From NCBI RefSeq assembly GCF_009663395.1, contig NZ_QKNW01000001.1, positions 1,426,001 to 1,490,000 on the forward strand: a stretch of 64,000 nt of DNA, read 5' to 3'. Of this stretch, positions 7,435 to 9,284 are shown piece after piece. Position numbers and translations under genes: made by a program. The DNA comes from Halosegnis longus (GTDB taxonomy: Archaea; Halobacteriota; Halobacteria; Halobacteriales; Haloarculaceae). Within the stretch, counting starts at the first letter, position 1, and every line of letters begins with the position of its first letter. The notes under the pieces are model-generated. The model worked only from the letters and a program-made list of their open reading frames with translations, did not search any database and was not told the origin of the DNA.

Positions 7435-8097
7435 ATGTCACGCCGTGGTGAGCCGGTTCCAGAGGCCGCGCCGTTGGTCGGTCTCGTTCTCGCGTTTGGT
7501 ATCGCCGGCTTCGGGGCGCTCTTTGGAACTGCCGAGACGCGGCTCGTCGCGGTCGCCGCCGCGCTGGTCGTCCTCTACGGCTTCACCGCCGTCGGCATCG
7601 TGCGCTCGGGCGACCCGGCCGACGCCATCCCGCCGACCCCCGCGCTCGTCGCCGGTGGCGTCCTCGCCGTCGTGCTCGCCGGCTACGGGCTCGCCACCTC
7701 GTCACCGTCGCTCGCGCTCGCCGTCGCGGCCGTCGCGGCCGTTCCGACCGCCCTCTATCACGCCCGCTACGGCGAGCCGATGAACCCACTCGACCCCGAA
7801 CTCACGCTTCTGGCGGTCGGTGGACTCGCCGCGCTCGTCGCCGGGCTCGGATTACTCACCGGGCAGGGACCAATCGGATTGGCGACGGCTGTCGCGCTCG
7901 TGCTCGCCGGCTTGGACTACCGTCGCCAGCGCGGCGGCCCGCTCTCGGATACGGCCCGGACGCGGGTCGTCGCCGGGCTGTTCGGCGGGACGCTCCTCGG
8001 GATTCTCGGCGGGATTGCCGCGGGCGAGCCGACGCTCGGACTCGTCGCCGGCAGCGTCTGTCTCCTCCTCGGTGCGTTCTTCGCAGTTGGACGGTAA
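7435..8097 (+). CDS. Hydrophobic membrane protein, function unknown
   Basis: The 220-residue protein has six to seven predicted membrane segments. Short charged turns such as YHARYGEPMNPLDPE (about 103-117) and DYRRQRGGPLSDTARTR (about 160-176) separate them. Low-complexity Ala/Val/Leu composition makes any family link weak. The start is the ATG at 7435; the longer in-frame extension overlaps the TRAM gene on the other strand. Confidence 0.6.
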   Translation: MSRRGEPVPEAAPLVGLVLAFGIAGFGALFGTAETRLVAVAAALVVLYGFTAVGIVRSGDPADAIPPTPALVAGGVLAVVLAGYGLATSSPSLALAVAAVAAVPTALYHARYGEPMNPLDPELTLLAVGGLAALVAGLGLLTGQGPIGLATAVALVLAGLDYRRQRGGPLSDTARTRVVAGLFGGTLLGILGGIAAGEPTLGLVAGSVCLLLGAFFAVGR

Positions 8098-8112
8098 AAC
8101 GAGAAAAGACTC

Positions 8113-8148
8113 CTACGCGACCGGGGTTCGCTCGACAACCGTGCCATC
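8113..8148 (-). repeat. Detached second copy of the radical SAM gene's 3' end
   Basis: Read on the minus strand this stretch encodes DGTVVERTPVA and a stop (TAG), the same as the end of the radical SAM gene 158 bp upstream on that strand. Over the 12 shared codons there are five base differences and all are at silent third positions (including TAA versus TAG). It is not attached to any gene now. Confidence 0.7.
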
Positions 8149-8270
8149 GCACCTTTTTGCTGTTCGGGTGCGCTCCGCGCACCACTCCCCGGTAAAATCT
8201 GCACCAAAACAGCAGCCGAGCCTCCCGTCGGTCGGCTCGGTAAAACGTTCCTCCGTTCGGCGTACGCTCG
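8149..8270. other. Structured insert between the two copies of the gene end
   Basis: This 122-bp stretch lies between the duplicated gene ends. It contains a perfect 7-bp hairpin with a 3-nt loop (GGTGCGC-TCC-GCGCACC, about 8167-8183) and a second perfect 7-bp inverted repeat (CCGAGCC / GGCTCGG, about 8216-8240, 11-nt loop). The motif CACCTTTTTGC borders the first copy. There is no convincing open reading frame. It may be a small mobile or integrative unit, or a terminator region. Confidence 0.4.
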
Positions 8271-8306
8271 TTACGCGACCGGCGTTCGCTCGACGACCGT
8301 CCCGTC
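8271..8306 (-). repeat. Functional copy of the duplicated gene end (in the radical SAM gene)
   Basis: This is the coding copy of the 36-bp repeat, ending in TAA. It pairs with 8113-8148. Confidence 0.7.
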
Positions 8307-9284
8307 GTAGGTCGGATACTGCTCGACGATTTCGCCCTCCTCCACGTCGCCCTCCTCGACCATCTCCTCGAGCAGCCACCACGCGAGTTCGACGTGGTCG
8401 GACTTGACGGTGTAGAACTCCTCGGGGACGCCGAGGTCGGCCAGTCGCTCCTCGGTCTCCCACGTCTTGCCGTAGACGAGCGTGCCGTCGTCGGTCACCT
8501 CGTCGAACTCGCGCCGGAGATTGCGGGCCATCCGCTTCAGCCGCGAGCGGTGTTGTGCGGCGTCTTTGAACACGCTCGTACAGAAGTACACCTTCTCGTG
8601 GTCGCCCATCGTTTCGAGGATGTCGTGGCTCCCCTCGACCGCGCTCATGTGGCCGTCCTTCAGCTCGAAGCCCTCCTCCTGCATCCGGCGGTAGTTCCCG
8701 TCGGACATCTCGAACTCGTTGATGTTACAGAAGTCGGCCGCCCCCTCGTCGAGGAACTCGAGGAACTCCTCTTCCGCGCGGATGCCCGGAATCTCGAAGG
8801 CGGGAGTCAGGCCCTCCTCGCGGGCGATGTAGAGAATCTCCTCCCACTCGGTGCCGTGGAGGTCGCCCCACTGCTCGTACGGCGGGTGGAAGCGAATCTC
8901 GTCGAGTCCGGCCTCCGAGAGGCGGCGCATGTTCTCGCGGCCACCCGTGATACCCGTGTAGAGGTGGGTGTGGTGGTCCTCGCCGAACTCGTCTTTCAGC
9001 AGGCGGAGATACCGGCAGGTCTTCTCCATCACCTCCTGGGGTTCACCGCCCGTGATGGAGGTGCCGAGCGCGTCCATCAGATTCGCCTCGGCGATGATGT
9101 CCTCGTCGGATTCGACGGGGCGTTCGTTCGCGTACGTCTGGGTGACGTTCTTCCGGTTCTCGCCGAGCGGGCAGTAAAAGCAGTCGCGCTGGTCGCAGTA
9201 GCCGTACACGAACAGCACCATCTTGCCGCCTTTCGCACACTGCTCACAGCCCTTCGAAATCATCTGTTGTCCCGTCTTACCCAC
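8271..9284 (-). CDS. Radical SAM protein with CX4CX2C cluster motif
   Basis: The 337-residue protein has a radical SAM core. The iron-sulfur ligands appear as C30, C35 and C38 in CDQRDCFYCPLG, a CX4CX2C spacing instead of the usual CX3CX2C. TGGEP (about 88-92) is the SAM-binding GGE motif. Two more cysteines precede the core (C13, C16 in GCEQC). Residues 240-330 form a charged C-terminal extension. Archaeal homologues are annotated only as radical SAM proteins and the reaction is unknown. The last 12 codons are repeated downstream (8113-8148). Confidence 0.85.
   Translation of the reverse strand: MGKTGQQMISKGCEQCAKGGKMVLFVYGYCDQRDCFYCPLGENRKNVTQTYANERPVESDEDIIAEANLMDALGTSITGGEPQEVMEKTCRYLRLLKDEFGEDHHTHLYTGITGGRENMRRLSEAGLDEIRFHPPYEQWGDLHGTEWEEILYIAREEGLTPAFEIPGIRAEEEFLEFLDEGAADFCNINEFEMSDGNYRRMQEEGFELKDGHMSAVEGSHDILETMGDHEKVYFCTSVFKDAAQHRSRLKRMARNLRREFDEVTDDGTLVYGKTWETEERLADLGVPEEFYTVKSDHVELAWWLLEEMVEEGDVEEGEIVEQYPTYDGTVVERTPVA

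Follow-up and report, generated by a model that had tools for sequence, protein, structure and literature searches.

Why does a gene carry its own 3' end twice? In the 64,000-nucleotide stretch of Halosegnis longus DNA analysed here (hereafter the window), the final 12 codons of a radical SAM gene reappear behind a 122-bp insert. The initial annotation had described this repeat with five silent differences, and the description is exact: the two copies lie 158 bp apart, 31 of 36 bases are identical, and each of the five changes (GAC/GAT, GGG/GGC, GTC/GTT, ACG/ACC, TAA/TAG) is silent. We call the functional copy L (GACGGGACGGTCGTCGAGCGAACGCCGGTCGCGTAA), the displaced copy R (GATGGCACGGTTGTCGAGCGAACCCCGGTCGCGTAG, at 8113-8148) and the element between them E. 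The locus is organized as follows.

8271..9263, minus strand: gene for a radical SAM protein (330 aa, Pfam PF04055), host of the doubled end
8271..8306, minus strand: L copy, final 12 codons of the functional gene, DGTVVERTPVA and stop
8149..8270, minus strand: insert, 122 bp, the complete element as repeated within the Halosegnis longus genome (about 83% identity to the copies at C1:234588 and C1:1704051)
8215..8238, minus strand: hairpin 1 (GAGCCGACCGACGGGAGGCTCGGC), behind which a T run lies at 8206-8209; read from the sequence and placed by the match to the R1 covariance model
8149..8202, minus strand: core of E (R2 core-model match, E-value 1.3e-11)
8113..8148, minus strand: R copy, displaced second end, DGTVVERTPVA and stop, beginning at the foot of E
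8098..8112, no strand assigned: spacer that separates the R copy from the convergent gene and contains a T-rich stretch
7435..8097, plus strand: convergent neighbour gene (220 aa, no Pfam match), not duplicated

Orthologues of the radical SAM gene are present in 49 of 59 relatives. Aligning the flanks on the left and right of the insert gave a score of 49, against a 99th percentile of 31 in 1652 cross-pair controls; the control maximum of 70 probably reflects orthologous loci paired by chance. Halosegnis rubeus, assembled independently, has the same arrangement (L010/L155) with L and R differing at 4 of 36 positions, and the duplication in the window is therefore not an assembly artefact. That the pattern as a whole is a coincidence or artefact has a negligible probability: the repeat in the window is indeed short, but the arrangement, examined against controls, recurs at many genes and in many independently assembled genomes.

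The insert belongs to a dispersed family of non-coding hairpins in Halobacteriales. A DNA search of the 2.77-Mb Halosegnis longus genome returned further copies, the best two 83% identical over about 120 bp. A first covariance model (R1), built from 14 copies, gave 26 matches in this genome at E-values up to 1 (16 of them below 1e-3) and 8-51 matches per genome in eight relatives at E-values up to 0.1. A core model (R2) matched 19 of the 157 phylum genomes surveyed, every one of them from Halobacteriales like the window, a lower bound given the strict filters. About 30 Halobacteriales genomes appear in the survey output; under the same filters no sampled genome outside Halobacteriales yielded a match. 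A scan of viral contigs with TTTTTCRCCCAYGTTTTTGC produced three matches, and the one inspected (L235) looked like chance and lay outside the context of E. The initial annotation had rightly seen no evident gene in the insert, and the searches it proposed, for insert copies, for other doubled gene ends and for relatives with and without the insert, returned copies in the own genome and in relatives, other gene ends doubled beside E, and empty sites. It had named a unique insert, or one present in all relatives, as grounds to abandon its proposal; the insert is neither.

The two 7-bp inverted repeats first noticed are real, yet they understate the structure, since the right half of the window insert forms a 54-nt hairpin whose foot covaries. 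Its core reads GCA-GA-TTTT..GAGTGG-hairpin 2-ACCCGA..AAAAA-GG-TGC, with feet, GCA (8200-8202) and TGC (8149-8151), that pair with each other and change together from one family member to the next. The upstream part of E consists of hairpin 1 and the T run. Family members follow the core NNA-NN-T(4-5)..GAGYGG-hairpin-CCCGA..A(4-5)-GG-TNN. Paired feet were found in 77 of 97 copies (shuffle mean 20, maximum 32) and comprise GCA/TGC, CCA/TGG, CGA/TCG, GAA/TTC and GTA/TAC; such base pairing between the 5' and 3' feet of a hairpin is a property of IS200/IS605-type elements. The strongly covarying foot and the conserved GAGYGG/CCCGA motif suggest a candidate dedicated protein, which weighs against the template-switching account favoured below. 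E has no coding capacity (122 bp in the window, similar or shorter elsewhere), and an Rfam search of six E loci returned a single tRNA match and no RNA family for E. At L254 (G029:C1:672861) about 50 bp are inserted between T5CGCCCACG and the hairpin. At L248 (G029:C1:397571-397677), a locus absent from the matches listed for the first covariance model, a very short E accompanies a gene end encoding ERDPVVSY and stop, repeated in tandem as two 95-bp units.

Gene ends are doubled beside many members of the family. We aligned the 260 bp on the left of E with the 260 bp on the right for 111 copies from nine genomes, taking the 99th percentile of the 1652 cross pairs as the cut-off. Twenty-six copies exceeded it, and real cases score between 49 and 186. 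In almost all 26 the left copy corresponds to the 3' end, stop codon included, of an ORF lying upstream, and the right copy begins within a few bases of the right foot of E (an apparent offset of +65 at L134 arises from a model end placed too early). The doubled ends, as judged from their sequences, include those of GyrA, RfcS, the PolD large subunit, a DHH-family protein, PurE, HMG-CoA synthase, IleRS and the radical SAM protein. Among 44 further copies, mostly of other families and from loci not used in finding the rule, 17 passed a score of 34 and about 16 are gene ends, again including those of radical SAM and IleRS genes. Repeats range from 29 to 167 bp, with a few nucleotides of filler between foot and R, and the far junction almost never falls in plain spacer; selective retention would be our guess at the reason.

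Several genomes contain tandem arrays of gene end plus E, the expected outcome of recombination between end copies. One such array lies behind the radical SAM gene of Salinibaculum litoreum (L032/L208, G019:C1:2703787-2705417), where about ten near-perfect 171-bp units of gene end and E follow one another and the last unit differs slightly. Two simpler descriptions of the repeat were discarded. R is not the tail of an ORF crossing E, as the residues upstream of it are KKV, EKGG or KR depending on the locus and the frame is not constant; nor is the arrangement a simple tandem duplication of gene end and E, as no complete E follows the final R in the cases examined.

The radical SAM gene itself offers a comparison across genera. 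Of 80 named loci, roughly 16 have a recognisable E close to the end of the gene; the duplication is present in 11 of these and in none of the 64 that lack it (Fisher p ~4e-10). Carriers include Halosegnis rubeus, Halomarina, Halorussus, Halobacterium, Haloarcula, Haloferax, Natrinema and Salinibaculum, and the second copy starts at different points even within one genus, so that several independent events are needed. Empty sites reveal what R was before insertion. The gene of G064 (L243) is 95% identical to that of G062 (L242) and lacks the insertion, and its native stop and flank, TGAGCAGTCGTCCCGAACGCGAGCG, stand after the second copy in G062. Likewise, G059 and G060 (L241/L239) are empty sites for G029 (L022), in which the native flank TACTGCCGA follows R. 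As the empty sites carry the same end and flank, R with its flank is the former native gene end. Two ends of one gene flanking E, with the native end displaced, are found at L242/L243, at L022/L241, at L213 and at IleRS.

Copies of E that show no duplication point to a function at gene ends. Of 73 such copies, 54 lie 0-8 nt from the stop codon of a real convergent gene, a few more adjoin what look like tRNA 3' ends, and the same gene ends are found beside E again across genera. (Sequence resembling a tRNA 3' end adjoins E at L043, L089, L084 and L310, the last with a 22-bp tRNA-like stretch on both sides.) E places a T run close behind the stop codon, as haloarchaeal intrinsic terminators do, and a T5C run has been proven to terminate transcription in Haloferax volcanii (PMC7237163). 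On the strength of these convergent-stop positions and the proven T5C run, E, each arm of which has a T run at its foot, is most likely a bidirectional transcription terminator, as predicted from sequence. In the window, hairpin 1 and the T run at 8206-8209 appear terminator-like for the radical SAM gene. The T5C terminators of H. volcanii likewise lie close behind stop codons and sometimes include a hairpin (PMC7237163), whereas E forms a conserved family of two-sided hairpins and is accompanied by duplicated gene ends.

How, then, does a terminator-like hairpin come to double a gene end? Several insertions have identical copies, at L069 (68/68), L148 (81/81) and L102 (46/46), and at L106 and L108 the full or nearly full identity of R extends past the stop, through hairpin 1 and T5CGCCCAC, to the foot of E. 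The duplication can hence arise locally, without import. We lean towards an account, which we hold to be probable if narrowly so, in which E is a dispersed hairpin terminator whose insertion doubles the gene end, presumably by template switching, with recombination between lineages later on. A new copy of E would land behind a gene with a far joining point that may fall inside the coding region, so that the last 30-170 bp of the gene would be repeated beyond E. On the near side the gene would retain its complete end and terminator, and the old end with its old flank would remain as R. The copying step may be template switching, in replication or repair, from another E in the same cell; E would be kept where it has become a working terminator; and later homologous recombination with relatives, with L and R as homology arms, would bring in the silent differences.

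Template switching from a resident E is favoured because the filler is variable, E is of host type, reverse transcriptase is absent and Y1 transposase usually so. Beyond the foot, the junction holds a few nucleotides of variable filler. A point against template switching is that no clear microhomology was visible by eye where R starts. The E beside a radical SAM gene finds its best match in an E beside another gene of the same genome (0.72-0.90) and scores lower against the radical SAM E of other genera (0.58-0.70), the only exception being the close pair Halosegnis longus and H. rubeus (0.93). All six E-bearing genomes tested lack a reverse transcriptase (PF00078); a Y1 transposase (PF01797) is missing from four of them (Halosegnis longus, G019, G029 and G034) and present in G002 and G039. 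Two engines were rejected on these grounds. Reverse transcription of an mRNA end had some appeal, since R can stop where transcription terminates, and fails for want of a reverse transcriptase in the six genomes; an IS200/IS605-like engine fits the foot pairing, and is contradicted by the missing Y1 transposase in four of six genomes and by the flanking repeats.

A candidate dedicated transposase could instead insert E behind T5-NNNNNA terminators and duplicate a very long target site, 30-170 bp with the gene end inside it, an outcome comparable to casposons at the 3' end of EF-2. Such an enzyme would fit a right foot that is fixed, covariation of the foot pairing with the left triplet, the extension of R to the left foot at L106 and L108, and the strong enrichment of T5CRCCCAY in G019 and G029. 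We nonetheless consider it unlikely: repeats of 29-167 bp with a few nucleotides of filler before R are unlike the products of known transposases, Y1 is missing from four and reverse transcriptase from all six of the genomes tested, and no coding partner element was found. A broader proposal, put forward tentatively, is that E might represent a new class of prokaryotic mobile element, in which a candidate host factor would recognise the paired foot and GAGYGG/CCCGA, essential genes would be invaded by supplying a second, replaceable 3' end, and the displaced end could serve as a homology arm for crossing between genera.

At some loci the two ends come from different lineages. In the radical SAM gene of Haloarcula amylolytica (L213), the functional end is a foreign LSASNPQSEQSAVGD-stop, and R encodes LSNGADAGRATADD-stop, the end found in other Haloarcula species; the E variant and the junction GGTACTCGCGGCA are common to L213 and G029, although these belong to different genera. 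In one genus (g26, L274-L278), IleRS of G065 keeps EPLAAAEASD-stop, whereas G039 has a different functional end, FEADQREASEQASGD-stop, and an R that ends native-like in EPLAAPEASD-stop. G068 has the same E-R junction as G039 with a decayed R, and in G066 and G067, which lack E, the new end directly abuts a remnant of the old one. Across L274-L278 the IleRS C-terminus has been replaced serially. G029 shows the reverse, with L relative-like and R divergent up to the stop. As this pattern is opposite to that of L213 and IleRS, crossover points inside the gene end vary. By sequence comparison, the Haloarcula amylolytica radical SAM gene and the IleRS locus are demonstrably chimeras of different lineages.

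These chimeras bear on the proposal that the mobile unit is a foreign gene end plus E, for example as a circle, which integrates at a matching end by homologous or site-specific recombination, so that one end is foreign from insertion onwards. It is backed by the foreign end of L213, by the junctions common to G029 and L213 and to G039 and G068, by the native-like R of G039, and by all-silent differences at many loci. Yet copies are identical at L069, L148 and L102, and at L108 the identity includes the terminator sequence; the sequence of E tracks the host genome and not the gene; no integrase-like partner was identified; and in the window L is closer to relatives than R (three differences to the nearest orthologue against four), for which reason we do not assign an imported end there. 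We regard the proposal as doubtful. The suggestion in the initial annotation that one end came from a related genome holds for the radical SAM gene of L213 and for IleRS (L141/L274). Identical copies elsewhere show that import is not required, and in the window the functional end, not the displaced one, is nearer to relatives.

Both copies have evolved as coding ends, as the initial annotation had also argued. In trimmed codons, 24 comparisons gave 41 silent L-R differences and 3 others, a count that leaves out the chimeric L141; a neutral R would give about 39% silent (p ~4e-14). This ratio needs recombination between lineages, which is demonstrated at two genes only. In our reading, L and R start out identical and come to differ once the gene end has been exchanged with relatives; the main rival view is that a foreign end arrives with the insertion itself. 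The silent changes could also mean that R has a function of its own, perhaps as an RNA or a recombination site, and is kept by selection in an old, vertically inherited duplication, and R of the window matches that of H. rubeus at 35 of 36 positions despite an adjoining spacer identical at only 9 of 16. This is very improbable given that R is eroded in the sister species G003 and G004 and absent at the radical SAM gene in G001 and G005, that its start points differ within one genus, and that the frame from E into R is not constant. The sister species G004 (L012) and G003 (L013) retain an eroded E and remnants of R at the same radical SAM end, a picture of second-copy decay.

The literature we searched, not exhaustively, contained no description of gene-end duplication by E. 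The nearest published architecture is that of fungal mitochondrial gene hybrids formed by mobile ORFs, in Allomyces atp6 and Glomus atp6, atp9, cox2 and nad3 (PMC3630166). In both systems an incoming end replaces the gene end, the element sits in the middle and the native end is displaced beyond it; differences between the ends are often synonymous and the new end is foreign. Fungal mobile ORFs, however, carry a homing endonuclease gene and span several hundred bp to about 1 kb (PMC3630166), whereas E has no such gene, is 54-120 bp of non-coding sequence in archaeal chromosomes, and its duplicate can be local.

The model of the initial annotation is largely right, but its likening of the insert to integrative elements at tRNA genes gained no support: nothing resembling an integrase or att site was found. 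Integrative elements at tRNA gene 3' ends and casposons at the EF-2 gene 3' end (PMC6614799) share with E the use of conserved gene 3' ends and a gene left restored or intact. They encode an integrase or Cas1, and their att or target duplications are defined. E has no coding sequence, and the repeats beside it (29-167 bp) vary in length and start in place of a fixed att core. A retroelement origin finds no reverse transcriptase in the six E-bearing genomes.

The foot pairing of E resembles the pairing of guide and cleavage site in REP and IS200/IS605-type elements. REP/REPIN sequences and the haloarchaeal IS200/IS605-derived PATEs are, like E, short, palindromic, dispersed, non-coding and intergenic (PMC3119063). 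PATEs are reported there to lack target duplication, whereas E has gene-end repeats, and the portion consulted describes haloarchaeal PATEs, MITEs and SMRs as short and dispersed with no account of gene-end duplication (PMC3119063). The window genome lacks a cognate Y1 HUH transposase, as do three of five further E-bearing genomes that were tested, and the flanking duplication likewise sets E apart from IS200/IS605 elements.

E reveals a recurrent, order-wide route by which a non-coding hairpin of about 100 bp allows the C-termini of essential archaeal genes to be doubled, swapped between lineages and tandemly amplified. Its empty and filled sites form natural pairs for studying template switching in archaeal replication, or a new transposition enzyme, and E itself is a candidate terminator family of haloarchaea. 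For haloarchaeal phylogenies it carries a caution: some variable C-termini are imported.
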